Of a DNA stretch of 64,000 nt, positions 4,174 through 42,030 are shown piece by piece. Each line of letters opens with the position of its first letter. Position 1 is the first letter of the stretch. The notes beneath the pieces are model-generated. The model had not been told where the DNA came from. It worked only from the letters and a program-made list of their open reading frames with translations, and did not search any database. The position numbers and the translations under genes were made by a program. This DNA comes from Microbacterium invictum (GTDB taxonomy: Bacteria > Actinomycetota > Actinomycetes > Actinomycetales > Microbacteriaceae): contig NZ_JACIFH010000001.1 in assembly GCF_014197265.1 (NCBI RefSeq), forward strand, positions 1,612,001 to 1,676,000. Reading direction: 5' to 3'.

Positions 4174-6567
4174 GTGACCGGACTCCGTACTCTGCTGCGC
4201 GGCAACGCGTTCGTACACAAGTGGCGGTTCGCACCGTACATCCTCGCGTATGCACTGGCGACGCGTCTGATCCGGGTTCGCAAGGACCGGGTGCTGTTTC
4301 TGTCGGATTCCCGCCTGGGCTTCTCCGGCAACTTCAGTTTCCTTCTCGATGAGTTGCGGGGTCAGCGCCCCTCGGCGGATGTCATCGGCATCTTCAAGCC
4401 GAGCCTGCGGGCACGGCGACGACTGCGCGACACGATCCGCCTGCCGTGGTTGATGGCCTCGGCGCAGACCATCGTCGTCGACGACTTCTATCCGCTGGTG
4501 TACCCGCTGCGGATCCGGCCGGAGACACGTCTTCTGCAGGTGTGGCACGCCGCGGGCGCGTTCAAGCGGGTCGGCTGGAGTCGTGCGGGGCTCCCAGGGG
4601 GGCCCTTGCCCGGCTCGCTCGTGCACCTCAACTACACCGATGCCACCGTCAGCGCCGAGGAGATCCGCAGTGACTACGCCGAGGCATACGGCATACCCAC
4701 CACCAAGGTCCACGCGCTCGGTGTTCCGCGCACCGATGTCTTCTTCGATCACGAACACGTCGCCCGCGCTTCGCAGTCGGTGCGACAGCGCTACGGCATC
4801 CCCGCATCCACTCGGATCGCGCTGTTCGCACCCACCTTCCGCGGCAACGGTCAGCTGACCGCCACCTATGACGTCGACAGCGTGCCGTGGGAGTCGCTCG
4901 CAGCCGACCTCGGTGACGACTGGGTGGTGCTGGTGAAGCTGCACCCGTTCGTGACGCCGCTGCACGTGCAGCGGCCGGACATCACCGGGGTCATCGACGT
5001 CTCGCAGGAACGCGAGCTCAACGAGCTGCTGATGGCCGCCGATGTGCTGATCACCGACTACTCCTCGGCGATCTTCGAGTACGCGCTGCTCGATCGACCC
5101 ATCGTCTTCTACTGCCCCGACCTGGACGAGTACACCGCCACCCGCGACTTCTACTATCCACTCGACGACTACATCACCGGCCCCCTTGTCAAGACCGGCG
5201 ATGAGCTCGCCGACGCCATCAGGTCGGCCCGCGTCGGTGAGAAGGCGCGGCGCTTCCGCGAGCGCTTCATGTCTGCGTGCGACGGTCGCTCCAGCGAGCG
5301 CATCGTCCGCGAGCTGCTGCTGAGTCCGCGCGCGGTCGTCCAGCGGGCAGCAGTCGCACCCGGCGGAACGCCCGAGCCGACCCGCGCCGAAGGGCGCATG
5401 CGGCTGCGGCTCGCCGTCGCCTGGCTCGCGCGAACCAGTCTGCGCATCGTCTACGCACCCTTGAAACTGCTGCCGACGCGGCGCAAAGTGGTCATGATCA
5501 GCCGCGAGCACCCGACCGTCCCGGATGACTTCCACGACCTCGCCGACGCGATCGCAGCACTTGACTCCTCGGTCCGGGTCGTGATCCTCGTCAAGATGGT
5601 GCCCCCCGGCATCCTGGGGAAGATCGGGTACGCCGCGCACATGCTCGCGCAGCTCTACCATGTCGCCACATCGCGCGTGCTCATCGTCGACACCTACGCG
5701 ATCGTGGCGAGCGTGCCGACGCACAAGAAGAGCCTGACGGTCATCCAGATCTGGCATGCGCTGGGTGCGTTCAAGAAGTTCGGGCTCAGCATCCTGGGCC
5801 GGCCCGAGGGCCGTGACGCGCGTCTGGGCGCGGCCATGCGCATGCACGAGGGGTACGACATCGTGCTGACGAGCTCGGCGGAGTGCCGGTCCGCGTACGC
5901 TCAGGCCTTCGGCACCGACATCACGGCGGTCCAGGTCGCTCCCCTGCCGCGCGTGGACCGGCTGCGCGATCCCGCGCTGCGGGAGCAGACCCGCCAGCGC
6001 ATCGTCGAGCGGTACCCGCACTTGCAGGAGCGCCCCATCGCCGTCTTTGCTCCGACGTTCCGTCTGGACGGCAGTGTGTCGGTGGATGCCGCGACGCTCA
6101 CCGCTGCCCTGGAGGCCATCGGGGTGCACACCGTGGTGAAGCTGCACCCCCTGATGCATGGTCGTTTCGGAACGACTGTGGACACTGCAGAGGGTTTCTC
6201 CACGCAGGAAATGCTCGCCGTCGCCGACATCTTCGTCACCGACTATTCGTCGACGCTGTATGAGGCAGCCGTCGTCGGCGTGCCGACGTACTTCCTCACC
6301 CCCGATCTGGACGACTACCTCGATTCACGGGACTTCTACCTCGACTACCGGCGCGACCTGCCTGGACCGATCGTCACCAGCGTCGAGGAGCTGGTGGGAG
6401 CCGTGGCCGCGGGCGCCGCGACACCCGCCGACGCCGCGGCTTTCGCACACCGCTGGGTGCAGGTGCCCGGCGACCCCGTGCCGGCGCCGGGTGCCACTCC
6501 GTGCGCCGACGCGATCGCGGCGACCGTGCTCAGTGCCGTGACGGAGCGCGCGACACCCCGCGCCTAG
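4174..6567 (+). CDS. Tandem CDP-glycerol glycerophosphotransferase-like protein (two TagF-like modules)
   Basis: A 797-residue protein made of two homologous modules. Module 1 (about 1-390) has VWHAAGAFKR near residue 123, GVPRTDVFF, FAPTFRG, VKLHPF and ITDYSSAIFEYALLDRP. Module 2 (about 395-797) repeats the series: IWHALGAFKK near 526, PLPRVDR, FAPTFRLD, VKLHPL and VTDYSSTLYEAA. These match the TagB/TagF/TarL family, which polymerises glycerol- or ribitol-phosphate from CDP donors on a lipid-linked primer at the membrane. Both modules keep the histidine and DYSS motifs, so both could be active (one primase, one polymerase, for example). The GTG start follows GGAAAG. The next gene makes a CDP-alditol, so ribitol phosphate is the likely unit; that is inference. 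Confidence 0.85.
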   Translation: MTGLRTLLRGNAFVHKWRFAPYILAYALATRLIRVRKDRVLFLSDSRLGFSGNFSFLLDELRGQRPSADVIGIFKPSLRARRRLRDTIRLPWLMASAQTIVVDDFYPLVYPLRIRPETRLLQVWHAAGAFKRVGWSRAGLPGGPLPGSLVHLNYTDATVSAEEIRSDYAEAYGIPTTKVHALGVPRTDVFFDHEHVARASQSVRQRYGIPASTRIALFAPTFRGNGQLTATYDVDSVPWESLAADLGDDWVVLVKLHPFVTPLHVQRPDITGVIDVSQERELNELLMAADVLITDYSSAIFEYALLDRPIVFYCPDLDEYTATRDFYYPLDDYITGPLVKTGDELADAIRSARVGEKARRFRERFMSACDGRSSERIVRELLLSPRAVVQRAAVAPGGTPEPTRAEGRMRLRLAVAWLARTSLRIVYAPLKLLPTRRKVVMISREHPTVPDDFHDLADAIAALDSSVRVVILVKMVPPGILGKIGYAAHMLAQLYHVATSRVLIVDTYAIVASVPTHKKSLTVIQIWHALGAFKKFGLSILGRPEGRDARLGAAMRMHEGYDIVLTSSAECRSAYAQAFGTDITAVQVAPLPRVDRLRDPALREQTRQRIVERYPHLQERPIAVFAPTFRLDGSVSVDAATLTAALEAIGVHTVVKLHPLMHGRFGTTVDTAEGFSTQEMLAVADIFVTDYSSTLYEAAVVGVPTYFLTPDLDDYLDSRDFYLDYRRDLPGPIVTSVEELVGAVAAGAATPADAAAFAHRWVQVPGDPVPAPGATPCADAIAATVLSAVTERATPRA

Positions 6568-6603
6568 GATGGAGTGTCGCCCGACACCGACCCGAGGAGT
6601 GCC

Positions 6604-8001
6604 ATGACCGCAACGTCGCGAACAGTCGCCGTCGTGCTCGCCGGCGGCATCGGCGTACGGGTCGGGCTGGGCATCCCCAAGCAGCTCATCAAGATCGCCG
6701 GCAAGGCGATCGTCGAGCACACCCTCGAGACGCTCGACGCCCACCCCCTCATCGACGAAGTCATCATCATGATGAACGCAGGATCACTGTCAGAACTCGA
6801 CCACCTGCTGAGTGGTCGCTTCCGCAAGCTCACCCGCGTGCTCCCGGGCGGTGAGACGCGCAACGACACCACCCAGCTCGCCATCGCCGCCATCGAAGGC
6901 GATGACACCAAGGTGCTGTTCCATGATGCCGTGCGGCCGTTCATCGACGATCGCATCATCCGCGACTGCGTCGACGCCCTCGACACCTACGACGCGGTCG
7001 ACACCGCGATCCCCTCGGCCGACACGATCATCCAGGTCGACGACGCCCGACACATCACGGGCATCCCTGATCGCTCCACGCTGCGCCGTGGCCAGACGCC
7101 GCAGGCCTTCCGGCTCGGCACGATCCGCCGCGCCTATGAGATCGCCGCCGGCGATCTGTCCTTCCGGGCGACGGACGATTGCGGCGTCGTGTTCCAGTAC
7201 CTGCCTGAGACCCCGATCTACGTGGTCGACGGAACGCCTGAGAACATGAAGGTCACCGAGCCGATCGACGTCCACATCGCCGACAAGATCTTCCAGCTGC
7301 AGTCTGCGAGCCTGGCTCTGGACACCCGGACCGACCAGCTACCCGACTTCGCCGGGCGCACCGTCGTGGTCTTCGGCGGCAGCTACGGCATCGGCGCGAG
7401 CATCGTCGACCTGGCGACCGAGGCCGGCGCCCAGGTCTTCGAGTTCAGCCGCTCGACCACCGGCACCGACGTTCGTCGGCCCGAAGATGTGCGCGACGCA
7501 TTCGACACTGTCATCGCGGCCACCGGGGCCATCGACGTCGTCGTGGTGACGGCCGGTGTGTTGCGGATCAGCCCGCTCATCGACGCATCTGCCGACGATC
7601 TCGCCGACACGATCGAGACGAATCTGCTCGCTCCGGTGCTGATCGCACGTGAGGCGTACCCTCACCTGGCATCCACCAGCGGACAGGTCGTGCTCTTCAC
7701 CTCGAGCTCGTACACTCGCGGTCGCGCCGGCTACGGCGTCTACTCGGCGACGAAGGCCGGCGTCGTCAATCTCACTCAGGCGCTGTCAGAAGAGTGGGCA
7801 CCGCAGGGCGTGCGGATCAACTGCATCAACCCACAGCGGACGCACACGCCCATGCGCACGGCCGCGTTCGGCGAAGAGCCCGCTGGCACGCTGCTGGAGC
7901 CGGCCGATGTGGCCCGGGTGACGCTCAGCGTGGCCGCGTCCGACCTGACCGGGCAGATCGTCACCGTCCAGGTCGCGGCGATGAAGGCCCACGCCGGCTG
8001 A
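6604..8001 (+). CDS. Bifunctional CDP-ribitol synthase: IspD-like cytidylyltransferase fused to SDR reductase
   Basis: 465 residues. The N-terminal ~225 are an IspD/TarI-type cytidylyltransferase (GGIGVRVGLGIPKQ, LPGGETRND, HDAVRPF, GQTPQAFR). Residues ~240-465 are a short-chain dehydrogenase with a GGSYGIG cofactor loop and a YSATK catalytic motif. The same domain order is known in the Haemophilus capsule enzyme Bcs1/Acs1, which reduces ribulose 5-phosphate to ribitol 5-phosphate and couples it to CMP. CDP-ribitol would feed the upstream tandem polymerase, 36 bases away on the same strand. I chose the ATG at 6604 because GAGGAG lies 5 bases before it; a GTG at 6574 lacks such a site. A TAGGAT box overlaps the upstream stop codon. 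Confidence 0.85.
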   Translation: MTATSRTVAVVLAGGIGVRVGLGIPKQLIKIAGKAIVEHTLETLDAHPLIDEVIIMMNAGSLSELDHLLSGRFRKLTRVLPGGETRNDTTQLAIAAIEGDDTKVLFHDAVRPFIDDRIIRDCVDALDTYDAVDTAIPSADTIIQVDDARHITGIPDRSTLRRGQTPQAFRLGTIRRAYEIAAGDLSFRATDDCGVVFQYLPETPIYVVDGTPENMKVTEPIDVHIADKIFQLQSASLALDTRTDQLPDFAGRTVVVFGGSYGIGASIVDLATEAGAQVFEFSRSTTGTDVRRPEDVRDAFDTVIAATGAIDVVVVTAGVLRISPLIDASADDLADTIETNLLAPVLIAREAYPHLASTSGQVVLFTSSSYTRGRAGYGVYSATKAGVVNLTQALSEEWAPQGVRINCINPQRTHTPMRTAAFGEEPAGTLLEPADVARVTLSVAASDLTGQIVTVQVAAMKAHAG

Positions 8002-9875: not shown

Positions 9876-11846
9876 TCAGCGCAACCGCTCTCGCAGGCGA
9901 CGGGCGGCCTGTCGCACTCGACCTCCTGCTCGACGCAGCCGTCGCATGCGGGAGGTTCGCGCCGGCGGTTCCGAGCGCGGCGGCCCGGCCGTCAGCGCGT
10001 CGGCGAGGCCCCACCATTGCGGGCCGGCGGGGTGCTGGTGGCCCAGGCGCACCCGGCCGGACTGCCAGCCGTCCGGCAGTGCGACGTCGAGGACGAGTCG
10101 GCCTTCTTCCGCGCGCATGGTGGCCGGCACATCGCGGAACGGCTGTGTGCGCGTCAGACGGTGGCGCAACGCGGTCAAGGTCGTGTGTCGTGGGGCGACG
10201 GCAACTGGCACGTCACGCGTACCGGCGTCGTCGGCTGTGGCATCCAGCAGCGGCACCGCAAGATGCACTTGGGTGCCGACGCGGGTGACCTTGGCGTTCG
10301 CTGCCGCCGGCAGAAGACGCTCGACCGCATCCCGTGGACGACCGAGGGAGAGGGTGAGGATGCCGTCGGCATTGGTGTACACGACGCGCAGCCGGCCGTC
10401 GTGAACGGCTGCGGATGGTGCGAGCGCGGACCGCATGCCCTGCTGTGAAGCCGTGCCGGCGAGCGTGCAGCGCACATTCAGATCCCACAGGCCATCTTCG
10501 AGCGCCCGCCCGAACACGACCCTGTCGGGGTCGATCGTTCCGTGCGCGGTCGCGGTGAACGAAACCGCTCCGTCTGCCGCGTCGGCGATGGACAGCTCGC
10601 GGCTGCTCGGAGCCATCCAGGTGATGCGCGACGTCCGAGAGCGCAGGCCGACTTCGACATCGGCCGCATGGATCTCGTCTGTGACATCGAGGATCGTGTC
10701 AGCAACACTCCCGGCGTACTCCACCGGCAGCACCTTACGGATGCGCTCACCCGAACGCCGCAAGGCGTGGCGACGACCCTTTGGAGACGACCACTCGGCC
10801 TGCACGTCGACCTCGAGGCTGCCGTCGACCCAGCGCGCGGCGGTCGCCCGCCCCCAGCCGGGGATGCCGGGGTCGTGGCTCGGCAGCTTCTCCAACAGAT
10901 CGCGAGCACCCGCCGCGAGCAACGTCGCCCGGATGCGGCCAGACGCGTTGAGCCGGTCGTCCAGTCTGTTCAAGGCGAAGTCCCGCTGAAGGGCACGGCA
11001 CTGCTCGTAGATCCGGTCGCGCTCCGGGGCGGGGCGCCCCGCGAACGCACCGTTGAACGAACCGAGGATGCGTGAGCGGTACTGATGGGCGAGCAGCTGC
11101 TCCCGCGAGCGCGCGTGTGCATCCTCGGCCAGGTCGGTCTCCGTGGCGACCAGCACTTCACGCAGCCAGTGCCAGAACTCGTCGCCGGAGCGGAGAAACC
11201 CCTTCGATCCGCTGCCGCGCGTCATGTACCAGTGGTAGTAGGGCACGCTGGCCAGGGTTGCGATGACGCGTGCGTGCCGGTCGACGAGCATGTTGAAGAA
11301 GATGTCTTCCCACATGACCCGGCCGCCTTCGCGGAATCGGATGCCGTGGTCGTTCAAGAAGGCACGACGGTACAGCTTGTGCGGGTTCATCGGGATAAGC
11401 GGGTGCTGATCCTCACGCCCGATCGACTGCGCCTCGTCGGCACGATACGTGTCGATCGCCCATGTCGCATCGTGCGTACGTGCTTCCTTGCCGTTGACGA
11501 CGTCAGCCCGGTGTGCCTTCGCGAAGTCGTACGCCGCGCGCAGCGCGTCGGGGTACAGCAGGTCGTCGTGGTCCATGTAGGCCACGTACTCCCCCATGGC
11601 CAGGTCGGTGCCGATGTTGCGCGGGCGGGACGGCCAGCCGGAGTTCTCGATGCGCTCGACACAGACGTGCGGGCGTGTCTCCCGGACCTTCAGCAGCCGT
11701 TCGTGGGTGTCGTCGGGCGAGCCGTCGTCGACGAAGATCACCTCGAACTCGGACGTGGGCATCGTCTGCGCGTCCAGAGATGCGATCAGTCGATCCAGGC
11801 CCTCGCCAGAGCGGAACGTGGGGACGACGATGGAGACCTTCAGCAC
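9876..11846 (-). CDS. TarS-like GT2 glycosyltransferase (wall teichoic acid glycosylation)
   Basis: 656 residues. The N-terminal GT2 domain has SIVVPTFRSG, FVDDGSPDDT, NSGWPSRPRN, DHDD (metal site) and, later, HKLYRRAFL and WEDIFF. This pattern resembles Staphylococcus TarS/TarP, which add GlcNAc to poly(ribitol phosphate); the C-terminal ~350 residues are beta-rich, as expected for a TarS-type trimerisation region. The last ~30 residues are strongly basic (many Arg), which could hold the enzyme at the membrane. I chose the GTG at 11846: a GTG at 11855 overlaps the TATAGT box and would lie upstream of the transcript start. The sugar and the linkage cannot be read from sequence. Confidence 0.75.
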   Translation of the reverse strand: MLKVSIVVPTFRSGEGLDRLIASLDAQTMPTSEFEVIFVDDGSPDDTHERLLKVRETRPHVCVERIENSGWPSRPRNIGTDLAMGEYVAYMDHDDLLYPDALRAAYDFAKAHRADVVNGKEARTHDATWAIDTYRADEAQSIGREDQHPLIPMNPHKLYRRAFLNDHGIRFREGGRVMWEDIFFNMLVDRHARVIATLASVPYYHWYMTRGSGSKGFLRSGDEFWHWLREVLVATETDLAEDAHARSREQLLAHQYRSRILGSFNGAFAGRPAPERDRIYEQCRALQRDFALNRLDDRLNASGRIRATLLAAGARDLLEKLPSHDPGIPGWGRATAARWVDGSLEVDVQAEWSSPKGRRHALRRSGERIRKVLPVEYAGSVADTILDVTDEIHAADVEVGLRSRTSRITWMAPSSRELSIADAADGAVSFTATAHGTIDPDRVVFGRALEDGLWDLNVRCTLAGTASQQGMRSALAPSAAVHDGRLRVVYTNADGILTLSLGRPRDAVERLLPAAANAKVTRVGTQVHLAVPLLDATADDAGTRDVPVAVAPRHTTLTALRHRLTRTQPFRDVPATMRAEEGRLVLDVALPDGWQSGRVRLGHQHPAGPQWWGLADALTAGPPRSEPPARTSRMRRLRRAGGRVRQAARRLRERLR

Positions 11847-11853
11847 AGTCGGC

Positions 11854-11859
11854 ACTATA
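11854..11859 (-). promoter_or_regulatory. -10-like box (TATAGT) for the TarS-like gene
   Basis: A near-consensus TATAGT on the minus strand sits 7 bases before the GTG at 11846, again predicting a leaderless message. It overlaps an alternative GTG at 11855, which argues against that start. Confidence 0.45.
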
Positions 11860-11891: not shown

Positions 11892-13184
11892 TCAGCCTGC
11901 GCCGACGACGATGCGTGGTGTTCCGGTCCAGGTGGCCGCGTCGGTCGCGTTGCGTCCGTCCACGAGAAGCCGGATGCCGGGAATCTGATCCGGGGTCAGG
12001 GCACGGTACTCGGCGTGATCTGTCTGGAGCACCGCGACCTCGGCCGGGTCTCCGAGCGTGTGCGGTTCGAAGCCCAGCGCCCGCAGCTCGTCATCGGCGT
12101 ACAACGGGTCATGCACCGTGACCGTCGCCCCGCGGGCCTGCAGCGCCTCCACCGTCGGGAACGCGCCCGAGAAGGCCGTCTCCTTCACCCCGCCCCGATA
12201 CGCGGCACCCAGCACCACGGCACGCAGCCCGTCCAGCGACCCGAGGATGCCGGTGGCCTGCGCGACCAGCCGCTCTGGCATCGAGGCGTTCAGCAGCCGC
12301 GCAGTCCGCACGATGTCGGCATCCGGGTCGGTCGACAGGTACAGCCGCGGGTAGACCGGGATGCAATGCCCGCCCACCGCGATGCCTGGACGGTGAATGT
12401 GACTGTACGGCTGCGAGTTGCACGCCTCAATCACCTGATACACGTCGATCCCGTGCTCGGCCGCGAACAGGCCGAACTGGTTCGCCAACCCGATGTTCAC
12501 ATCCCGGTAGGTCGTCTCGGCGAGCTTCGCCATCTCCGATGCCTCCGCACTGCCCAGATCCCACACCCCGTTCGGGCGCGGCAGATCGTCACGGTCATCG
12601 AACTGCAGCACCGCCTCGTAGAACTCGCGGGCACGCTGCGCGCCCGCGTCGGACAGCCCCCCGATCAACTTCGGGTACTTGCGCAGATCGGCGAACACGC
12701 GGCCTGTGAGCACCCGCTCCGGGGAGAACACGACATGGAATTCGGTGCCCTCAGTGAGTCCCGACCCGGCCTCGAGCATCGGCTTCCACCGGCCCCGGGT
12801 CGTCCCCACCGGCAGCGTCGTCTCATACGACACCAGAGTCCCGGGCGTCAGATGTTCCGCCAGCGACCGGGTCGCGGCATCCATCCACGCAAAGTCCGGC
12901 TCCCACGTCGTGTCGTTCACGAACAACGGGACCACCAGAACCACCGCATCAGCCCCCGGAATCGCATCCGCGTAGTCGGTGGTCGCGCGCAATCGGCCGG
13001 TGGAGACCAGCTCAGACAGCTTCTCCTGCAGATGCGCCTCACCCGGGAACGGCTCGACACCGGCGTTCACGCTGGCAACCGTCGCCGCATTCACATCGAC
13101 ACCGACCACCTCGTGACCCGAATCAGCGAACTGGACAGCAAGAGGAAGCCCGATCTTTCCCAGGGCCACGACGGCAATGCGCAT
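11892..13184 (-). CDS. wecC: UDP-N-acetyl-D-mannosamine/UDP-sugar 6-dehydrogenase (WecC-like)
   Basis: 430 residues, usual for the UDP-glucose/GDP-mannose dehydrogenase family. A Rossmann N-terminus (VALGKIGLPLAVQFADSGH), the central YETTLPVGTTRGR and SPERVLTG segments, and the catalytic cysteine in GGHCIPVYP are all present; the C-terminal UDP-binding domain is complete. The enzyme makes a UDP-hexosaminuronic acid by two NAD+-dependent oxidations. Choosing WecC over WbpA or UDP-glucose dehydrogenase rests on overall similarity and on the wecB-like 2-epimerase gene 3.6 kb away; UDP-GlcNAc as substrate remains possible. It would supply uronic acid units for the wall polymer. A TAGACT box lies 7 bases before the ATG. 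Confidence 0.85.
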   Translation of the reverse strand: MRIAVVALGKIGLPLAVQFADSGHEVVGVDVNAATVASVNAGVEPFPGEAHLQEKLSELVSTGRLRATTDYADAIPGADAVVLVVPLFVNDTTWEPDFAWMDAATRSLAEHLTPGTLVSYETTLPVGTTRGRWKPMLEAGSGLTEGTEFHVVFSPERVLTGRVFADLRKYPKLIGGLSDAGAQRAREFYEAVLQFDDRDDLPRPNGVWDLGSAEASEMAKLAETTYRDVNIGLANQFGLFAAEHGIDVYQVIEACNSQPYSHIHRPGIAVGGHCIPVYPRLYLSTDPDADIVRTARLLNASMPERLVAQATGILGSLDGLRAVVLGAAYRGGVKETAFSGAFPTVEALQARGATVTVHDPLYADDELRALGFEPHTLGDPAEVAVLQTDHAEYRALTPDQIPGIRLLVDGRNATDAATWTGTPRIVVGAG

Positions 13185-13286: not shown

Positions 13287-14630
13287 TCAGCCACACAGCG
13301 TGAATCTCTCGACAGCCGGTGAAAGCGCCCCGGTGCCACCCAGAAGAATGAGCCCGTTCGAACGATGCGACACGATGCCGGCAGCAGCATCCTGGCCCAT
13401 GCACGCAGGCGGGGTGAGGAAGAGGGGAGCTCCCCAGGCGCCCGCGAGCGGTGCGCCAGCAAGTGCATCCGGGAAGTTCAGGCCGTTCGCCACGAACGCA
13501 ACATCGGTGGCCCCGAACACGGCAGTGTTCAGCATTGTCGCCGTCTCGTATCGTGAGCCGCCCGCGAGGCGCAAGATGTCAGCCGACCCATAGCCGGCTT
13601 TGCGAAGCGAGGTCTCGATGCCGGACGAGACGGCACCGGTGCCGCCCGCGATGAAGAGGTGTTTCACCTTCAGATCCTTGAGGAGCTTCAGCGTCGCGGC
13701 GGGAACGGTCTTGGCCACGCCGTCGAGCAGAATGACGGGTGCACCGATGGCCCCAGCCGCGGGGCCCGCAGCGAGTGCGTCGGGATAGTTGCGACCCGTC
13801 GCGATGATGGCGATGTCTGCGCCCCCACGGAAGGCATCGCGCACGATGCGGTCGCCGGTCGCGTAGCGGTCCGCGCCGCCGAGGCGGTCGACCCGCGCCT
13901 TGGGGAGCAACTTCTTCACCGCTCCTTCGACGGCGGGTGACACGGCCCCGCTCCCCCCGACGATCACGACTCGCGCCGGCTTGAGGGTGGCCAGTTCGCC
14001 GCGTGTCGCTGCCGGCAGCGTGCCCGGCTGAGTCAGCAGCAGGACTCCTCCGGATGCGATGGCGCCGGGACCGGCGGCGAGCGCGTCCGGGTAGTTCATG
14101 CCGTTCGTGAGATACACGACCGGAGCCGTACCGTCGACGGCTTCCCTCGCAATGTTCGCTGCGGTTGCGAACCGGTCCGCCCCGGCGATGCGGTCGACGT
14201 CGAGCGTTCGCTCCTTCAGCTCGACTGTACCGAGCGCAGTCGTGGCGCCGGCTTGGACGACGATGTCCTCCGATTCGACGAAGTAGCGTGCTCCCCTCCA
14301 CCACTGCAGGCCCAGCGAGACATCGTCGGCCAGGAAGCGCACCGAGTAAGATCCAGGTGCGAGGTCCGCAGAGGTCCACGTCGTGTCCGTGGCGTACCAC
14401 TCCGGATCCTCCACGGGCAGGTAGGTGCTCGTGGCCTCATCGAGCTTCCAGAAGCTCACTTCGACTTCGTCGCCGGGGATGAGGTCGACAGCCGCGTACG
14501 TGACGCGGACTTCGACATTCCCCTCGCCCGGGTCGACCGGCGGTGCAGCCGCATACGCCGCCGATGCCAGCGAGGTGAATACGAGAGCGAGAGCCGCGGT
14601 GAGGGCGGCAGAGAAGCGGACGCGCGACAT
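13287..14630 (-). CDS. Secreted protein with three CWB2 cell-wall-binding repeats
   Basis: 447 residues. A signal peptide (about 1-28, ending AAYAAA) is followed by a ~120-residue beta-rich domain of unknown role and three CWB2 (PF04122-type) repeats from about residue 145. Each repeat has an AGADR[FY]AT or GGSRYET start, an NYPDALA or NFPDALA core and an IVGGSGAVS- or LLGGTGALS-like end. In Clostridioides difficile, CWB2 triplets hold proteins to the wall by binding the anionic polymer PSII. GGAAGG precedes the ATG at 14630. The gene is divergent from the CWB2-epimerase gene, with 140 bases between them. No catalytic domain is visible. The protein is probably exported and bound to the polymer made by this locus; that is inference. 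Confidence 0.85.
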   Translation of the reverse strand: MSRVRFSAALTAALALVFTSLASAAYAAAPPVDPGEGNVEVRVTYAAVDLIPGDEVEVSFWKLDEATSTYLPVEDPEWYATDTTWTSADLAPGSYSVRFLADDVSLGLQWWRGARYFVESEDIVVQAGATTALGTVELKERTLDVDRIAGADRFATAANIAREAVDGTAPVVYLTNGMNYPDALAAGPGAIASGGVLLLTQPGTLPAATRGELATLKPARVVIVGGSGAVSPAVEGAVKKLLPKARVDRLGGADRYATGDRIVRDAFRGGADIAIIATGRNYPDALAAGPAAGAIGAPVILLDGVAKTVPAATLKLLKDLKVKHLFIAGGTGAVSSGIETSLRKAGYGSADILRLAGGSRYETATMLNTAVFGATDVAFVANGLNFPDALAGAPLAGAWGAPLFLTPPACMGQDAAAGIVSHRSNGLILLGGTGALSPAVERFTLCG

Positions 14631-14770: not shown

Positions 14771-16678
14771 ATGCGCGCCATGCCAAACCGGATCGTCGCG
14801 GTGCTCGTCACCGCGGTCCTCGCCTGGTCCCTCGCCAACCCGATCGCCGCGATAGCGGACGGTGACGAGCGATTGTGGGGCCAGACCCGCTATGAGACCA
14901 GTGTCGCCGTATCGCAGCGCTTTGACCCGCGCCCGGCGGTCGCCTTCGTCGCGACGGGCACCGACTATCCCGACGCTCTCGCCGGAGCGGCCGCGGCCGC
15001 GGCGACTGGTGGGCCGCTGCTGCTCACGTCGCGCACGCATCTTCCGGCGGTGGTCCGGATGGAGCTTCAGCGACTGAAGCCGAAGAAGATTATCGTCCTG
15101 GGCCTCGCCGGTGCCATTTCGGATGACGTCGTGAAGAGCCTCTCCGCTCTCGCACCGACAGAGCGCGTGGGCGGTGCGGATCGCTACGCGACCTCACAGA
15201 GATTGATCGACCGGGTCTTCAGCAGCACCCGGTCCGTAGCGATAGCCACCGGTCGCGGCTACGCCGATGCACTCGTAACAGGGGCCGCAGCCGGCGGCGC
15301 CGGTGCACCTCTGCTACTCATCGATGGGGGCCGCACCGTCGTACCGACGGGTACGATCGCGGCCCTCCGCCGATGGGGCGTGGAGGAGATTGCAATCGCC
15401 GGTGGACACGGCGCTGTCGACATCCACATCGAACAGCAGTTGCGCACAGCCGGGTTCGCCGTCACCCGCCACGCGGGACCTACACGGTTCGAAACCGCCG
15501 TCGCTGTCAATGCTGCTTACTATTCGGCTGCCACACCCGACGCGGTCTTCCTCAGCACCGGCCTGGACTTCCCAGATGCGCTGTCCGCGTCGGCACTGGC
15601 CGGTCATCGGCACGCACCGCTATACCTCACGCGTAAGACGTGCGTGCCGAAGGCTGCTCACGACGCGATCACCGATCTGGATGCCGATCTGATCACCGTG
15701 GGTGGAGTGGGCGCGGTCTCGGCTGCGGCGGCGGCCAACACTGCGTGCCCAGGGTCAGCCCCGAGGATCCCGAAGTGGGCGACCACCGGCTGGGAGCTGT
15801 CATCGGATATCGTCCCCTACGACGACCGCACACCGGTCGACGTCCACGACCGCAGCATTACGCTCGACGCGACCGGGCTGCGTATCTACGAACGTCGCGA
15901 TAACGGCGTCCGCGCCGACCATCCGGTCGCTTATGCGCAGTACGGCATCTCTGCGCTCATGGAGTACCAGCGGACAGGCACAAAGCTGTGGCTCGATCGC
16001 GCTCTCCGGCACGGTGAGCGGCTCACGCAGATGCGGACCGAGCGTGACGGTGCGTGGTGGTTCCCCTACCTGTTCCCCTGGACATACTACGAGCGCACAC
16101 TCACTGTTCCGTGGTGGTCGGGAATGGCTCAAGGCGAAGCACTCTCGCTCTTTGTCAGGCTCCATGAGGAGACGGGGGATGCCCGGTGGTGGACCGCCGC
16201 CGAACAGACATGGGCGAGTTTTCTCCAGCCCCCGGTCGCGGGGTCACCGTGGTCGACGATGGTCGACCGGGGGCGGCTGTTCTTCGAGGAGTATGCGGGC
16301 AATCAGCCTCCACTGCTCGTCCTGAACGGACAGGTGTTCGCCGCTTTCGGCGTGTACGACTACTGGCAGGCAACCGGTGACCCCCGCGCGAGAGCCTATG
16401 TGGATGGCGCCGCCACCACAGTGCTGAAAATTATGCCGCTGATCCGCAAGCCTGGCGGCGTCTCCTACTACTGCGCCCAGGAGCCGTATTGTCAGAGTTC
16501 GCGGTGGCAGAACGCCAACTACCATGCGATTCACTCATGGCAGCTCGACACGCTTGCACGACTGACCGGCGACACGGCGTTCACGAAGTGGGCAGATCTG
16601 CTCCGCTCCGACTGGCAACGGAGCGCGCGCTTCGCGCAGCCGCCCACACTCGGCTGGGAGGACGGACCGCCGCAGTGA
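14771..16678 (+). CDS. Secreted CWB2-repeat protein fused to a D-glucuronyl C5-epimerase domain
   Basis: 635 residues. A signal peptide (1-~29) leads into three CWB2 repeats (about 35-330; VGGADRYAT, TGLDFPDALS and VGGVGAVS are typical pieces). After a short linker, residues ~350-630 match the C-terminal domain of heparosan/heparan glucuronyl C5-epimerases (PF06662-type): PWWSGMAQGEALSLFVRLHE, FFEEYAG, LVLNGQVFAAFG and NYHAIHSWQLDTLARLTGD. That family flips the C5 carboxyl of glucuronic acid within a polymer. The CWB2 part should hold the enzyme at the wall, so it would edit a finished uronic-acid polymer outside the cell. Start chosen by GGGAGGA. Two cysteines in a YYCAQEPYC segment could form a disulfide. 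Substrate is inferred. Confidence 0.85.
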   Translation: MRAMPNRIVAVLVTAVLAWSLANPIAAIADGDERLWGQTRYETSVAVSQRFDPRPAVAFVATGTDYPDALAGAAAAAATGGPLLLTSRTHLPAVVRMELQRLKPKKIIVLGLAGAISDDVVKSLSALAPTERVGGADRYATSQRLIDRVFSSTRSVAIATGRGYADALVTGAAAGGAGAPLLLIDGGRTVVPTGTIAALRRWGVEEIAIAGGHGAVDIHIEQQLRTAGFAVTRHAGPTRFETAVAVNAAYYSAATPDAVFLSTGLDFPDALSASALAGHRHAPLYLTRKTCVPKAAHDAITDLDADLITVGGVGAVSAAAAANTACPGSAPRIPKWATTGWELSSDIVPYDDRTPVDVHDRSITLDATGLRIYERRDNGVRADHPVAYAQYGISALMEYQRTGTKLWLDRALRHGERLTQMRTERDGAWWFPYLFPWTYYERTLTVPWWSGMAQGEALSLFVRLHEETGDARWWTAAEQTWASFLQPPVAGSPWSTMVDRGRLFFEEYAGNQPPLLVLNGQVFAAFGVYDYWQATGDPRARAYVDGAATTVLKIMPLIRKPGGVSYYCAQEPYCQSSRWQNANYHAIHSWQLDTLARLTGDTAFTKWADLLRSDWQRSARFAQPPTLGWEDGPPQ

Positions 16679-16763
16679 CTCGTGGTCATGCGCGGACTGT
16701 TGCAGCCGCGACTCGCCCGCGTTGACGCACGCAGGTCCGCGGAACCTACCTGCAGATCGGGTT

Positions 16764-16792
16764 GACGTCTTCACGCCAGGGGCAAAGACGTC
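16764..16792. terminator. Inverted repeat between convergent genes, possible bidirectional terminator
   Basis: GACGTCTT (16764-16771) and AAGACGTC (16785-16792) form a perfect 8-bp stem with a 13-base loop. It lies in the 117-base gap between the ends of the epimerase gene and wecB. There is no T-run on either side, so termination is uncertain; a regulator site is another reading. Confidence 0.3.
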
Positions 16793-16795
16793 GAT

Positions 16796-17863
16796 TCAGC
16801 GTGAGTGCTGCTCAAGCACCTTGATGACCCGCTGCGCGGCGTTCCCGTCGCCGTAGGGGGCAGCGTCTGTTGCTGCCGGACGAGCACGGGCGACTGCCGC
16901 CGTGATCTCTTCCGCGGTGTTCGCGAGCACGTTCCAACCGAGTGCCACCGTCTCGACCCACTCGGTCTCCGTGCGCACCGTCGTCGCCGGCACCCCCAGC
17001 AGGAACGCCTCCTTCTGCAACCCGCCCGAGTCGGTGACGACACCCGCGCTGGCCAGAGTCGACGCGATCAGATCGGGGTACGCCAGCGGCGCGTGCGCGA
17101 TCAGCGAACCCTGCGTGAGCGAGATGCCGTGGCTCGCCGCCTTCGCGACGACCCGCGGGTGTGCCAGTAGGACGACGGGCTTGTCGAGCGCCGCAAGGGC
17201 GCCCGTCACCTCGGCGAGCCGCGCCGGATCGTCGGTGTTCTCGGCCCGGTGGATCGTCGCCACGTAGTGCCCGCCCGATTCCAGCCCGAGTTCGGCGACC
17301 AGTGGAGACAGTCGCCCGGCAACAGCATCGCGCACTTCGAAGAGTACGTCCGTCATCACGTCACCCACCAGCACGGTGCGCTCCGCGAGACCCTCGGATG
17401 CCAGGTGCCCGACCGCTACCTCGGTCGGTGCCAGCAGAAGGTCGGCGGCATGATCTGTGAGCACCCGGTTGTGCTCTTCCGGCATCCGCCTGTTGAAGCT
17501 CCGCAACCCCGCCTCCAGATGCGCCACGGGCAGGTGCATCTTCACAGCGCTCAGCGCGGCCGCCACCGTCGAGTTGGTGTCGCCGTACACGAGCACCCAG
17601 TCGGGCCGTTGCGCATCGAAGACCGCATCGAGCGCCGCGAGCATCGCCCCGGTCTGAACACCGTGCGAACCACTGCCGACCCCCAGGTGCACATCAGGGG
17701 CAGCGATACCGAGATCATCGAAGAACACATCCGACAACATCGGGTCATAGTGCTGCCCCGTGTGCACGATCACGTGCTCCACACCCGCAGCGACGGACGC
17801 CCTATGGACAGGGGCGAGCTTGACGAACTGCGGGCGCGCGCCCACGACGCTGACGATCTTCAC
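16796..17863 (-). CDS. wecB: UDP-N-acetylglucosamine 2-epimerase (non-hydrolysing)
   Basis: 355 residues, the normal length. Family hallmarks: VGARPQFVKLAP near the start, HTGQHYD, VYGDTNST, HLEAGLRS, MPEEHNR, TIHRAEN, and the C-terminal TDSGGLQKEA. The enzyme interconverts UDP-GlcNAc and UDP-ManNAc in the cytoplasm. With the WecC-like dehydrogenase 3.6 kb away it would give UDP-ManNAcA, a usual precursor of teichuronic-acid-like polymers; UDP-ManNAc is also used for the linkage unit of wall teichoic acid. The GTG start at 17863 has a TAGACT box 6 bases upstream and no Shine-Dalgarno site, so a leaderless message is likely. Confidence 0.93.
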   Translation of the reverse strand: MKIVSVVGARPQFVKLAPVHRASVAAGVEHVIVHTGQHYDPMLSDVFFDDLGIAAPDVHLGVGSGSHGVQTGAMLAALDAVFDAQRPDWVLVYGDTNSTVAAALSAVKMHLPVAHLEAGLRSFNRRMPEEHNRVLTDHAADLLLAPTEVAVGHLASEGLAERTVLVGDVMTDVLFEVRDAVAGRLSPLVAELGLESGGHYVATIHRAENTDDPARLAEVTGALAALDKPVVLLAHPRVVAKAASHGISLTQGSLIAHAPLAYPDLIASTLASAGVVTDSGGLQKEAFLLGVPATTVRTETEWVETVALGWNVLANTAEEITAAVARARPAATDAAPYGDGNAAQRVIKVLEQHSR

Positions 17864-18675: not shown

Positions 18676-19752
18676 TCACACGATGCGACGGACGCCGGGA
18701 ATGCGTCTGAGGACGATCACGAGGACGAACGACACCGCGGCTGTGATCAGCCAGAGGATCGTCAGCAGAATGGGAGAACCGCCGTGCGATGCGAACACCG
18801 GAAGCTCGCGCAACAGTAGCAGCACCACGAAATGGATCAGGAATACGCCGAACGCCGCGTCCGACAGCGTCTGCAGCACGCGCGCGCCCGCGCGGCGGGG
18901 CGAGAAGGAGCGCAACGCGCCGTTTACACACACGAAGACCCCGATGGCCGCCACCGCGACGAGCGGACCGGGGTACCCGACGGGAGCGAGTGCGTTGAGC
19001 AGCGGGTGCTCCGACGCGGTGCCGTACTGCCACACGGTGAGGGCGACCGCGGTGCCAGTGCCCGCGACGGCGACTGCCAACGCCGCACCACGCAGGATCA
19101 CGTCGCGCAGGGCCCAGCCGGCCAGGAAGTAGCCGACGTAGGGAAGCCACTGCGTCAGAGCCATCAGCACCAGCGGACGGGGCTGGCCCGAGTAGGTGAC
19201 CACTGCGGCAGCGGACCACGTCACGACCGTGACGGCCAGTACGGTGACGGCGAAGACGAACGCACGCCGCCGGCCGCCGCCCCCGAGGAATGCGGCGAGG
19301 ATCGGCGCCACGGCATACAACCCGACGATGAGCCACAGGAAGTAGAGGTGCGTGTAGGTGCGACCGTCGAGGATCGACGTCGCGATGTCGCCCCAGCCGA
19401 GGCCAGTCCCGGAGAACCAGATCCGCACGAGCAGGATGTAAAAGGCCTGCCAAAACACGAACGCAGGCGCGAGCCGCAGCAGACGCCGTCGGTAGAAGGC
19501 GGCGGGGCCGGCGGAGAACTGCCGAGGCGCGAGGATGAGCGCTCCGCTGAGCATCACGAACAGAGGCACAACCCAGATGAAGCCGATGTCGACGGCTACG
19601 GCAAACCACCAGCGCAGCGAACCGCGCAACGCGGGATCCGAGACTGCCGCACCGAAGGTGTGGATCGCCACGACTCCGACGACGGCCAGCACACGCATCA
19701 CATCGAGAGGCCATCGCCGACCGGACGCCGACGACGTCGCGGGCGCAGTCAT
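18676..19752 (-). CDS. Acyltransferase 3 family membrane O-acyltransferase
   Basis: 358 residues with about ten hydrophobic segments. The start has the family pattern: DVMRVLAVVGVVAIHTFGA, including the conserved histidine, followed by VPLFVMLSGALIL. Acyltransferase-3 proteins (OafA, WecH-like) move acetyl or other acyl groups onto surface sugars across the membrane. The setting among glycosyltransferase genes fits O-acetylation of the local polysaccharide. The ATG at 19752 was chosen because the family N-terminus follows it directly; an upstream extension reads antisense into the next gene. It is divergent from the GT4 gene, with only 34 bases between them. Confidence 0.85.
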   Translation of the reverse strand: MTAPATSSASGRRWPLDVMRVLAVVGVVAIHTFGAAVSDPALRGSLRWWFAVAVDIGFIWVVPLFVMLSGALILAPRQFSAGPAAFYRRRLLRLAPAFVFWQAFYILLVRIWFSGTGLGWGDIATSILDGRTYTHLYFLWLIVGLYAVAPILAAFLGGGGRRRAFVFAVTVLAVTVVTWSAAAVVTYSGQPRPLVLMALTQWLPYVGYFLAGWALRDVILRGAALAVAVAGTGTAVALTVWQYGTASEHPLLNALAPVGYPGPLVAVAAIGVFVCVNGALRSFSPRRAGARVLQTLSDAAFGVFLIHFVVLLLLRELPVFASHGGSPILLTILWLITAAVSFVLVIVLRRIPGVRRIV

Positions 19753-29614: not shown

Positions 29615-30601
29615 TCAGAGACTTACCGACCCGCCGGTGCCCGCGGATGCGAGCGCGGCTTCGATGACGGCGAGGGTGCGTTGGCCTTGCGCCATGGTGA
29701 CGACGTCGCTGGGTTTGCCGAGGACGGCGTCGCGGAAGGCTTCGTGTTCGACGCGGAGGGGTTCACGTTTCGCGAACGCGTAGCGGGTGACATCGCCTTC
29801 GGAGACCCCGCGGAACGAGGACACCGATTCCCATTCCAGGGGGATGGTGCCGTTGGCGTGGAAAGTGAGGTCGCCGGTGGCGGTGTCGGCGACGAACGCG
29901 CCCTTCTCGCCGGTGACGATGGTGACGCGTTCTTTCATCGGGCTGAGCCAGTTCACGAGGTGATTCACGATGACCCCGGAGGCCAGCCGGCCGCTGATGG
30001 TGATCATGTCTTCGTATTCCCGTCCCGATTTGAACGTGGTCTGCGCGAACACGGTCTCGTACTCGGACTGCGCCACCCACGCCGTCAGGTCCACGTCATG
30101 GGACGCAAGGTCCTTCGCGACGCCCACATCGGCGATCCGCGACGGGAACGGGCCCTGCCGGCGGGTCTGGATCTGATACACCGCTCCCAACTCGCCCTCT
30201 TCCAGACGGCGGCGCAACTCCTGCAAGGCCGGGTTGAACCGTTCGATGTGCCCGACCGCGCCCACCAGGCCCGCCGCAGCGAAAGCGTCGACCATCCGCT
30301 GACCGGCCTCCAACGTGTCGGCGATGGGCTTTTCGACCAGGGTGTGCACCCCCGCGGCGGCGAGTTTCAGCGCGGCATCCTCGTGGAACCGGGTGGGCAC
30401 CGCCACCACGGCCATATCGATCCCGGCCGCGATCAGTGCCTCGATATCGGGCAGCACGTTCAGTCCGCCCGCGACCCCGTGCGGGTCGCCGCCCGGGTCG
30501 GCGATGGCGACCAGGTCGACACCGTCCAGTTCCCGCAGCACCCGCGCGTGATGGCGGCCCATCATCCCGACACCGAGCAACCCGGCGCGCAGTACGGCCA
30601 T
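29615..30601 (-). CDS. Gfo/Idh/MocA family NAD(P)-dependent oxidoreductase (WlbA/WbpB-like)
   Basis: 328 residues. Rossmann start GLLGVGMMGRHHARVLREL, then the family EKPIA motif and a C-terminal beta domain; GHIERFNPAL is typical of the sugar-nucleotide branch. WlbA/WbpB enzymes oxidise C3 of UDP-GlcNAc-uronate so that a paired aminotransferase can add nitrogen. Here the aminotransferase gene is directly upstream and the two overlap by one base (TGATG). Substrate is inferred from this pairing; other C3 oxidations are possible. Together with the wecC-like dehydrogenase it could serve a 2,3-diamino uronic acid route. Confidence 0.85.
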   Translation of the reverse strand: MAVLRAGLLGVGMMGRHHARVLRELDGVDLVAIADPGGDPHGVAGGLNVLPDIEALIAAGIDMAVVAVPTRFHEDAALKLAAAGVHTLVEKPIADTLEAGQRMVDAFAAAGLVGAVGHIERFNPALQELRRRLEEGELGAVYQIQTRRQGPFPSRIADVGVAKDLASHDVDLTAWVAQSEYETVFAQTTFKSGREYEDMITISGRLASGVIVNHLVNWLSPMKERVTIVTGEKGAFVADTATGDLTFHANGTIPLEWESVSSFRGVSEGDVTRYAFAKREPLRVEHEAFRDAVLGKPSDVVTMAQGQRTLAVIEAALASAGTGGSVSL

Positions 30602-31698
30602 CAGGCGCCCGCCCCGGCGACCGCGTTCACCGCGGCCACAATGCGGTCGAGATCGCCCTGCGACAGCGACGGGTGCACGGGGAGGGACACCACCTCACCG
30701 GCAGCGCGTTCCGTCTCGGGCAGCTCCAGCCCCGGCGCATACGGCGCCAGCGACGGCAACCGGTGGTTCGGGATCGGGTAGTACACTCCAGAACCGACCT
30801 GATGCTCCTCCCGCAACGCCGTCACGAACCCGTCCCGATCCTCCGGCACCCGGACCGTGTACTGGTGATACACATGCACCGCACCCTCACGGACCGGCGG
30901 AACGACCACACCGCGCAGGCTAGCGTCCAGGAACGCAGCGTTCTCCTGCCGCGCGCGTGTCCACCCATCCACCTTCGTCAACTGCACCCGGCCGATCGAT
31001 GCGTGAATATCGGTCATCCGCGCGTTGAACCCGACCACCTCGTTCTCGTACTGCCGCTCCATTCCCTGATTACGCAGCAGCCGGGCGTTGCGGGCGATGG
31101 TGTCATCGGCGGCGGTGATCATCCCGCCCTCACCACTGGTCATGTTCTTCGTCGGGTACAGCGAGAACATCCCGAACGAGCCGAACGTGCCCACCGGGCG
31201 GCCGTCCAGCGACGCCCCATGCGCCTGCGCCGCATCCTCGAACAGCATGAGCCCATGCTTCTGCGCGATCGCCTCCAGCTCTCGCATCAACGCCGGGTGA
31301 CCGTACAGATGCACCGGCATGATGCCCTTCGTCCGCGCGGTGATCGCCGCTTCCACCGAGGCCGGATCCAGAGTGAACGTGTCCGCCTCGATATCGGCGA
31401 ACACCGGGCTGGCGCCGGTCAACGCGACCGAGTTGCCCGTCGCGGCGAACGTGAACGACGGCACGATGACCTCGTCCCCGGCGCCGACACCTGACGCCAG
31501 CAAACCCAGATGCAGTCCCGCCGTCCCCGAGTTGACCGCAACCGTCGGCCGACCCTGCACGAAATGCGCCCCGAACTCCCGCTCGAACGCTGCCACCTCC
31601 GGGCCCTGCGCGACCATGCCGCTGCGCAACACCCGATCGACTGCCTCACGCTCCTCATCACCGATGATCGGCTTGGCGGGGGGAATGAACTCGCTCAC
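30601..31698 (-). CDS. DegT/DnrJ/EryC1/StrS family aminotransferase (WlbC/WbpE-like)
   Basis: 365 residues, usual length. PLP-dependent sugar aminotransferase signs: VNSGTAGLHLGL, DEVIVPSFTFAAT, FEDAAQAHGA and the lysine segment SLYPTKNMTSGEGG that forms the Schiff base. Such enzymes convert a 3-keto (or 4-keto) nucleotide sugar to the amino sugar using glutamate. The coupled Gfo/Idh gene favours the 3-amino route. I chose the GTG at 31698 because AAGGAG sits 7 bases before it; upstream residues do not resemble the family. A TIC-like N-acetyltransferase, usual next in this pathway, is not found in the window. Confidence 0.88.
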   Translation of the reverse strand: MSEFIPPAKPIIGDEEREAVDRVLRSGMVAQGPEVAAFEREFGAHFVQGRPTVAVNSGTAGLHLGLLASGVGAGDEVIVPSFTFAATGNSVALTGASPVFADIEADTFTLDPASVEAAITARTKGIMPVHLYGHPALMRELEAIAQKHGLMLFEDAAQAHGASLDGRPVGTFGSFGMFSLYPTKNMTSGEGGMITAADDTIARNARLLRNQGMERQYENEVVGFNARMTDIHASIGRVQLTKVDGWTRARQENAAFLDASLRGVVVPPVREGAVHVYHQYTVRVPEDRDGFVTALREEHQVGSGVYYPIPNHRLPSLAPYAPGLELPETERAAGEVVSLPVHPSLSQGDLDRIVAAVNAVAGAGA

Positions 31699-32964: not shown

Positions 32965-33362
32965 CGGTCCGCGGCACCGTCCGTGTCATCGGACGCCACA
33001 TCATCGGCGCCCGCGGAGGCCTCCAGCCGCCGGAGCCGTTCGTCCGTGAACGCGCTCTGCTCGGCGAGGGCGCGCAGCTTCTCCTCGATGCGGGTGAGCT
33101 CGGCGCCGTACTGCAGGCTGACCAGGAACAGCAGCCCGATCGCGACGAAGAAAGCGAGGTTGGTGGGCACGGCGATGCCAAGCAATCGCGCAGCCCAGGT
33201 GAGTGTCTGCGGGAAGATCGCCACGACCAGCGCGATGATTCCGCCGACGAGCCACCAGATCGCATGACGTTCCCGCAATGTCGCGCGCCGCATCAGCTCG
33301 ATGATGGCGATGAGGGCGAGCACTGCGGCGACAATGCCGAAGACGTATGTGGCCGTGGTCAC
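32961..33362 (-). CDS. DUF2304 family membrane protein
   Basis: 133 residues with three hydrophobic segments (about 5-22, 36-54, 66-83) and a charged C-terminal helix of coiled-coil character (ELTRIEEKLRAL). This matches DUF2304, a small membrane family typically encoded next to a GT2 of the dolichyl-phosphate sugar synthase type, as here. Presumed role: partner of that GT2 in making or moving polyprenyl-phosphate sugars. GTG start overlaps the upstream stop (GTGA), and its stop overlaps the next gene. Confidence 0.8.
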   Translation of the reverse strand: MTTATYVFGIVAAVLALIAIIELMRRATLRERHAIWWLVGGIIALVVAIFPQTLTWAARLLGIAVPTNLAFFVAIGLLFLVSLQYGAELTRIEEKLRALAEQSAFTDERLRRLEASAGADDVASDDTDGAADR

Positions 33363-37714: not shown

Positions 37715-38452
37715 TCAGCCTTCGAGGGCCTCGACGGCCCCCTCGATCGGCCCGTCGAAGACGACGACGCCCTTCTTGATGATGATGCCGCGGGTGCACA
37801 GTTCAAGGACCTGAGCCTTGCTGTGACTGACGACCATCATCGTCACCCCTCGCTCGGCAAGTTCTTTGAGCTTGACCGCGCACTTCGCGCGGAACGGCGC
37901 GTCACCCACGGAGAGGACCTCGTCGACGAGGAGCACATCGAGCTCGACATGGATGGCGACGCTGAATGCGAGGCGCATGAACATGCCGGACGAGTAATGC
38001 TTGACGTCCTGGTCGATGAAATCGCCGATTCCGCTGAACTCGAGGATCTCATCGAACCGTTCTCTGGTCTCGCGCTCGCTCATCCCGAGGATGGCGGCGT
38101 TCAAGAACACATTCTCGCGACCAGTGAGATCGGGGTGGAAGCCGGCGCCTACTTCGATCAGACCGGCGACACGGCCGCGGGTGAACACCCGTCCCTCGTC
38201 CGGCTCGAGCACACCGGACACGAGCTTGAGGGTAGTCGACTTTCCCGAGCCGTTGAGCCCCATGATGGCCACCGATTCACCGGCGCCGATCGTGAAGTTG
38301 ACGTCATTGAGCGCCTGGAACTGGGTGGCGCGGACCGGCCTGCGTCGGATGAAGTTGATGAAGGCTTCTCGCATCGACCTTGACGCCCGCTTGTTGAACC
38401 ATTTCGAGACATGCTCAACGATGATGCGAGGCTGAGTGGAGACGTCGACCAT
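37715..38452 (-). CDS. tagH: ABC transporter ATPase for polymer export (TagH/Wzt-like)
   Basis: 245 residues. Walker A GLNGSGKST, the variant signature YSSGMFMRLAF of polysaccharide/teichoic acid ATPases, Walker B VLLVDEVLSVGD and switch His in VVSHS. No C-terminal substrate-binding domain like that of Wzt is present, so it is close to the short TagH type. The ATG overlaps the permease stop (TGATG). Together they would carry a lipid-linked teichoic acid or O-antigen-like polymer out across the membrane. Longer upstream frames overlap the permease and were rejected. Confidence 0.9.
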   Translation of the reverse strand: MVDVSTQPRIIVEHVSKWFNKRASRSMREAFINFIRRRPVRATQFQALNDVNFTIGAGESVAIMGLNGSGKSTTLKLVSGVLEPDEGRVFTRGRVAGLIEVGAGFHPDLTGRENVFLNAAILGMSERETRERFDEILEFSGIGDFIDQDVKHYSSGMFMRLAFSVAIHVELDVLLVDEVLSVGDAPFRAKCAVKLKELAERGVTMMVVSHSKAQVLELCTRGIIIKKGVVVFDGPIEGAVEALEG

Positions 38453-41929: not shown

Positions 41930-42030
41930 GTGACCATTGTTACTGAAGTCAACAGTCAATACCACCTGAAAGTCGGACCCCGACGCAAAGACACGCCGAT
42001 TCCAGCGAGCTCGCAGAGGCGCCGCGCATC

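Follow-up and report, generated by a model that had tools for sequence, protein, structure and literature searches.

The alginate mannuronan C5-epimerases AlgE and AlgG convert D-manno to L-gulo residues within a polymer of plain mannuronate, and their fold family is unrelated to that of the D-glucuronyl C5-epimerases (GlcE). A bacterial GlcE-type enzyme, from Bermanella marisrubri, was reportedly described by Raedts in 2013, and to our knowledge it has no wall-binding module. The active-site set of GlcE comprises, in human numbers, E499, Y500, N510, Y560, and Y578 (PMC13308652); the available portion of the same paper says that the Bermanella enzyme shares the GlcE mechanism, and the archaeal C5-epimerase Agl32 converts glucuronic acid (GlcA) to iduronic acid (IdoA) in a glycan with the helical domain alone (PMC13308652). 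In Streptomyces griseus, the accessible text on the utr locus describes a teichuronic acid chain of N-acetylgalactosamine and 2,3-diacetamido-2,3-dideoxy-D-mannuronic acid (ManNAc3NAcA) on ribitol wall teichoic acid (PMC13274773). Here we analyzed a 64,000-nucleotide stretch of Microbacterium invictum DNA (the window; contig NZ_JACIFH010000001.1, positions 1,612,001 to 1,676,000) in which one gene encodes a protein with three CWB2 repeats and a C5-epim_C domain. On sequence grounds, we consider the case evenly poised that this protein is an exported, CWB2-held uronosyl C5-epimerase acting at the polymer level, with ManNAc3NAcA in a teichuronic-acid-like chain on wall teichoic acid as its likeliest target.

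The fusion of CWB2 and C5-epim_C in one open reading frame is real (Table 1). A sequence resembling a ribosome-binding site (GGGAGGA) lies just upstream of the ATG, and the N-terminus as judged by eye has a basic start, then a hydrophobic stretch, and small residues near position 29; a structure model of the protein had predicted local distance difference test values below 50 at residues 1-8 and 10-27. Pfam matched PF04122 in three stretches (157.7 bits, E 1.1e-46) and PF06662 well above its cut-off (101.7 vs 23.3 bits; E 4.5e-29), and the sole match in an NCBIfam scan was an S-layer model, below its cut-off. The motif P[ILV][ILV][LV] is expected in every CWB2 repeat, according to the accessible part of the source (PMC4973711); repeats 1 and 2 carry PLLL at residues 82 and 180, and repeat 3 carries PLYL at 283, with Tyr instead. 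For the N-terminal part, the solved structures closest in sequence were Clostridioides difficile Cwp6, Cwp8, and S-layer proteins; for the C-terminal part, they were the vertebrate D-glucuronyl C5-epimerases 4pw2, 6hzz, and 6i01. A fold comparison of the model matched the GlcE helical domain, with a gap of about 11 Z units to the next fold among the best 50 rows. The N-terminal beta-hairpin dimerization domain of animal GlcE was not found; CWB2 occupies the N-terminal half, and the protein was therefore not filed as an animal-type GlcE. A sequence-only reading of this DNA had described a signal peptide, three CWB2 repeats, and a C5-epimerase domain in one 635-residue protein, and the Pfam and solved-structure matches agree with it, the signal peptide being read by eye; both families it proposed, PF06662 and PF04122, were recovered, no other family was found for the C-terminal region, and its proposal of export and wall attachment is supported by family knowledge.

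In a sequence alignment, E507, Y508, N519, and Y584 correspond to human E499, Y500, N510, and Y578, and human Y560 aligns with Y566. Conservation was counted in 55 of 120 listed relatives: E507 and Y508 were each retained in 52, N519, Y567, and Y584 in all 55, and Y566 was variable (44/55). The loss of catalytic residues, which the sequence-only reading had flagged as a danger to its own assignment, was not observed in this alignment, four of the five being kept and Tyr560 ambiguous. We also noted that C568 and C574 are nearly invariant in the subfamily, so that residues 567-574 (window 16469-16492) present two near-invariant Cys straight after the shifted catalytic-loop Tyr. At the level of sequence, the data support a C-terminal domain with the GlcE-type C5-epimerase fold and most catalytic residues retained. 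The shared helical barrel could instead serve another activity on the wall polymer, such as that of a lyase, hydrolase, or lectin, which we regard as improbable given the separation of the GlcE matches from the next fold and the retention of the active-site E, Y, N, and Y.

A search with the catalytic part against 5.8 billion proteins returned 154 homologues at E <= 0.001. Among the 120 listed, 97 had both CWB2 and C5-epim_C, from named sources that include Microbacterium, Leifsonia, Agromyces, Mycetocola, and Diaminobutyricibacter, and 23 had the catalytic domain alone, with Nocardioides among the sources. The fusion frequently bears the database name "cell wall-binding repeat-containing protein," and no publication combining "CWB2" and "C5-epimerase" was found in a search that left most subscription papers outside; titles and abstract openings in the listed search results likewise pointed to no report of such a fusion. 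The build therefore appears to be a conserved family that is apparently undescribed; the statement in the sequence-only reading that no enzyme of this build had been described holds for the literature searched, but in databases such proteins are common. A scan of genome contigs yielded four Microbacterium loci, and PF06662 was present in 9 of 299 Microbacteriaceae genomes (hereafter carriers). Two of the genomes (G102, L021 9635-10663; G025, L025 9634-10647) each encode an additional epimerase, some 340 residues long and without a CWB2 match, 66-68% identical to the catalytic part of the window's protein. The epimerase of G241 (L029 8869-10581; 570 residues) also has no CWB2, and about 270 residues behind its domain are without a Pfam match.

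The WbpI-type neighbor of the epimerase gene scored 359 bits against a solved UDP-2,3-diacetamido-2,3-dideoxy-glucuronic acid (UDP-GlcNAc3NAcA; UDP, uridine diphosphate) 2-epimerase, 232 bits against the best UDP-N-acetylglucosamine (UDP-GlcNAc) 2-epimerase, and 112 bits against that of Escherichia coli. It was first read as part of a WecB/WecC pair making UDP-N-acetylmannosaminuronic acid (UDP-ManNAcA), and was moved to WbpI by the PDB comparison and by diagnostic residues; NCBIfam still names it wecB (246.9 bits, cut-off 210.15), with no WbpI model among the NCBIfam matches. The residues in question are Trp307, Tyr96, and Ala18 of the Thermus thermophilus enzyme, which the accessible text gives as marks of a diacetamido substrate (PMC10622841); the Trp (W302) and Tyr (Y93) are kept in the neighbor and the Ala is replaced by L16. 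For the dehydrogenase, the closest solved relative and the best specific NCBIfam match, below cut-off, were both UDP-ManNAcA dehydrogenases. In line with the WbpB step, the Gfo/Idh/MocA oxidoreductase had its best NCBIfam match in a model for UDP-GlcNAc 3-dehydrogenase (206.6 bits, cut-off 450); the PDB matches of this protein and of the DegT aminotransferase were not specific. WbpA, WbpB, WbpE, and WbpI types thus lie in the window, WbpB and WbpE 13 kb on, and an intact WbpD-type acetyltransferase lies at 1.968 Mb, 340 kb from the epimerase gene. With A and B assigned from NCBIfam matches below cut-off and E from a general DegT match, together with neighborhood and co-occurrence, the genes near the epimerase suggest a route to UDP-ManNAc3NAcA.

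Co-occurrence was counted in the 299 Microbacteriaceae genomes with a WbpI orthologue cut-off of 58% identity, set in a gap of the match table (404 vs 266 bits); 82 genomes matched at any level and 30 passed. The orthologue was present in 9/9 carriers vs 21/290 non-carriers (one-sided Fisher 3e-10). Further types were compared in a hand-picked set of 60 genomes, made up of every carrier (9), every WbpI-positive non-carrier (21), and 30 of the 269 with neither. WbpB types (at least 52% identity) were found in 9/9, 20/21, and 5/30 of these groups, respectively, and WbpA types at 70-100% identity in 9/9 carriers. WbpD types were spread over 8/9, 16/21, and 12/30, and WbpD was rejected as a marker. 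CWB2 was present in 8/9, 11/21, and 10/30; with this spread, and with G241 having the epimerase and four Wbp types without CWB2, CWB2 alone was rejected as the source of the co-occurrence. There is good evidence that the usual partner pathway of the epimerase is the diamino uronic acid pathway.

Since the diacetamido pathway genes both neighbor and co-occur with the epimerase, the reaction that would follow is the conversion of a diamino uronic acid from D-manno to L-gulo. The sequence-only reading had proposed glucuronic to iduronic conversion, which is not the best supported for the same reason, and its bracketed "guluronic-type" option came nearer. The classical activity, D-glucuronic to L-iduronic acid in the wall polymer with the diacetamido genes serving other parts of the polymer or locus, would accord with PF06662 membership and the GlcE fold, and with UDP-glucose-dehydrogenase-type genes (either of two types, by NCBIfam UDP-glucose 6-dehydrogenase models below equivalog cut-offs) in 9/9 carriers, the window's genome included (2.05 Mb), vs 10/21 WbpI-positive non-carriers. 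However, this type also occurs in 30/30 of the chosen genomes with neither, so that it leaves the occurrence of the epimerase unexplained, and the gene in M. invictum sits outside the window. Glucuronate was accordingly set aside as the leading substrate, the type being near universal and the co-occurrence being with WbpI, and kept as a rival that we judge rather unlikely. Epimerization of D-gluco GlcNAc3NAcA to the L-ido form is also conceivable, this sugar having the configuration of glucuronate, the classical substrate. It occurs in polymers of S. griseus and Streptomyces antibioticus, and the accessible text describes it in Streptomyces teichuronic acids as a reducing-end residue or a homo-oligomer (PMC13274773). 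The association, however, is with WbpI, which is required only for the manno form, and we consider this reaction very unlikely.

Across the class, PF06662 matches were found in 20/394 genomes, 17 of them outside Microbacteriaceae (including G412, which fell below the Pfam cut-off, and the partial matches of G429 and G523). A WbpI orthologue (at least 64%) was present in 11/17 of these vs 1/36 controls without the domain, chosen mostly by handle number (one-sided p 1.7e-6). The Tyr560 stretch was readable in 11 of the 17. The alignment did not include G412, G523, G103, G280, and G086, no stretch could be aligned for G414 and G366, and the G607 reading was off-frame. G426 has the Y-D-L-x-H stretch of vertebrates and no close WbpI (best 47%). 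In nine genomes the Tyr lies one place later (G419, G552, G506, G362, G408, G377, G465, G415, and G646), and 7 of the 9 have WbpI; G339 has neither Tyr. The vertebrate-like member without close WbpI and the WbpI company of the shifted ones speak against glucuronate as the substrate here, but G241 breaks the pattern, and a shifted Tyr is therefore no strict mark of Wbp company. The proteins of G646 and G339 (L062 and L063) form a divergent PF06662 branch in genomes with WbpI.

Physical linkage of epimerase and Wbp genes was seen in 3 of the 4 named Microbacterium loci. Microbacterium flavescens has WbpA-C5-WbpI in the order of the window, without a CWB2 gene between; in Microbacterium aoyamense WbpE and WbpB share the strand of the C5 gene and precede it by about 3-5 kb; and in Microbacterium sp. 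TPD7012, where the C5 protein has 336 residues and no CWB2 match, WbpI is about 6.5 kb away. No Wbp types were found within 7-8 kb of the C5 gene in Microbacterium sp. cf046. G241 has the run C5-WbpE-WbpB-WbpA with WbpI beside it and no CWB2 match in the genome. C5-WbpI linkage was present in 2/9 family carriers (G000 and G241), and C5 and WbpI were within 30 kb in 3/11 WbpI-positive carriers outside the family (G408, G429, and G646). A WbpD type starts 0.7 kb after the C5 match in G408, and in G429 all five Wbp types lie in the 15 kb before the partial C5 match. In that match (L077 ~16589-17071) the reading runs out of homology after the N-G motif region, which may reflect a damaged gene or a misreading.

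Several observations weigh against a ManNAc3NAcA-directed epimerase. The co-occurrence counts, in the family and in the class, ignore the relatedness of the genomes. Among WbpI-positive genomes the UDP-glucose-dehydrogenase type is commoner in carriers (two-sided p 0.011), and glucuronate therefore keeps its place among the candidate substrates. Six of the 17 carriers outside the family are without WbpI (G366, G412, G414, G415, G426, and G506), and the WbpI-positive G646 and G339 are without Tyr500 and have a gap at Tyr578 in the alignment; because these equivalents are lost, the two may not be epimerases, and the count becomes 9/15 once they are removed. The equivalent of Tyr560 is ambiguous, the aligned Y566 being variable and the invariant Tyr lying one place on, and the epimerase of G241, encoded within a Wbp run, reads Y-M here, with Tyr where the human enzyme has it and Met one place on. 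Close C5-WbpI linkage was not seen in 7/9 family carriers, some with the genes on different contigs, nor in 8/11 of the WbpI-positive carriers outside the family, where the two genes are often on separate contigs, and WbpD was not found in G241. No sugar analysis of any carrier was found in the literature searched, and the search also gave no relevant literature on Microbacteriaceae wall uronic acids.

If ManNAc3NAcA is the target, the protein would be exported by way of its signal peptide and would dock through its three CWB2 repeats on anionic wall polymer, by analogy with C. difficile as described in the accessible part of the source (PMC4973711). The CWB2 ligand may be the same polymer that the enzyme edits. 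From the fold and the residues, Glu and Tyr side chains would take the C5 proton and return it on the other face; the gene company points to ManNAc3NAcA as the substrate, and the product would be the L-gulo epimer, as with mannuronate and the alginate epimerases. We tentatively propose, as somewhat less probable than its role as a polymer-level epimerase, that the enzyme converts D-ManNAc3NAcA to 2,3-diacetamido-2,3-dideoxy-L-guluronic acid (L-GulNAc3NAcA) while tethered to the wall, within the assembled actinobacterial polymer, which would make it the GlcE-fold equivalent of the alginate epimerases. The gulo-configured diacetamido uronic acid of the Vibrio group belongs to the L series, and we know of no enzyme that was shown to make such a sugar; none appeared in the part of the literature that was screened by titles and the starts of abstracts. 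The sugar is reported, in the accessible part of the source, from polysaccharides of Vibrio anguillarum and Vibrio ordalii (PMC3210612), and the available portions of PMC7725333, PMC2997053, and PMC10059132 contain nothing on such an enzyme.

Other genes of the window are consistent in type with a wall-polymer locus (Table 1). The three CWB2 proteins have three repeats each and lie in one polymer locus, which accounts for about half of the 18 CWB2 matches in the whole genome. The acyltransferase 3 protein is a possible agent of polymer O-acetylation. A second IspD-type cytidylyltransferase (36178-37708), beside an epimerase-type protein, accompanies the one fused to a short-chain dehydrogenase/reductase (SDR), and the two possibly represent two polyol-phosphate routes. 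DUF6541 (34117-36063) and DUF2304 (32961-33362) proteins lie within the glycan locus, and an M23 peptidase is joined to FG-GAP repeats at 57782-59953.

Table 1. The epimerase gene, its parts, and surrounding genes, in window positions.
Feature	Position	Strand	Remark
CWB2 x3 + C5-epim_C fusion protein	14771..16678	+	635 aa, ATG start
Signal peptide, ~residues 1-29	14771..14857	+	read by eye from sequence
Three CWB2 repeats, ~residues 34-325	14870..15745	+	Pfam CW_binding_2 PF04122
C5-epim_C PF06662 match, residues 429-609	16055..16597	+	Pfam
WbpI-type UDP-GlcNAc3NAcA 2-epimerase (UtrH-like)	16796..17863	-	convergent to epimerase gene
Second CWB2 protein	13287..14630	-	divergent from epimerase gene
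UDP-N-acetylhexosamine 6-dehydrogenase type (WbpA/UtrD-like)	11892..13184	-	one gene upstream, behind CWB2 protein
GT2 glycosyltransferase, TarS-linker match	9876..11855	-	UtrC-like by TarS-linker match alone
Membrane acyltransferase 3	18676..19701	-	possible O-acetylation of polymer
Gfo/Idh/MocA oxidoreductase (WbpB/UtrB-like)	29615..30601	-	NCBIfam match below cut-off
DegT-type aminotransferase (WbpE/UtrA-like)	30601..31698	-	general DegT match
Poly(glycerophosphate) transferase-type protein, wall teichoic acid	4174..6567	+	
IspD-SDR fusion	6574..8001	+	TarI/TarJ-like by inference
ABC-type exporter, ATPase + membrane part, two genes	37715..39327	-	
Third CWB2 protein of locus	39422..41965	-	
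LytR-CpsA-Psr wall-polymer ligase family protein	43175..44629	-	

If the proposal is correct, Gram-positive walls would have after-export editing of teichuronic acids by an enzyme docked on the wall it edits, the GlcE family would gain a new substrate class, and L-gulo diamino uronic acids would have a polymer-level origin through which surface charge, metal binding, and recognition could be retuned after export. According to the accessible text, interbacterial umbrella toxins use teichuronic-type polymers of S. griseus as their receptors (PMC13274773), and epimerization could therefore change recognition. The S. griseus utr locus shares with the window the gene types for UDP-ManNAc3NAcA and a TarS-like transferase, and differs in that the epimerases named in the accessible text are UDP-sugar ones and the residues D-manno and D-gluco (PMC13274773); a search of that text gave no "gulo," "iduron," or "CWB2." Compared with vertebrate GlcE (PDB 6HZZ, 6I01, 4PW2, and 4PXQ), the window's protein is 21% identical, has CWB2 in place of the N-terminal beta-hairpin domain, and reads Y-Y-C-A-Q where the Tyr560 stretch is Y-D-L-R-H. 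Agl32 lacks every one of the GlcE residues and overlaps with the GlcE fold only in part (PMC13308652), whereas the window's protein keeps most of them. In contrast to the C. difficile CWB2 proteins Cwp6, Cwp8, and SlpA, the predicted cargo here is a sugar-polymer epimerase, repeat 3 is PLYL, and the host is actinobacterial. With AlgE and AlgG, the protein would share the type of change proposed, made on plain mannuronate there and, as proposed, on its diacetamido relative here.
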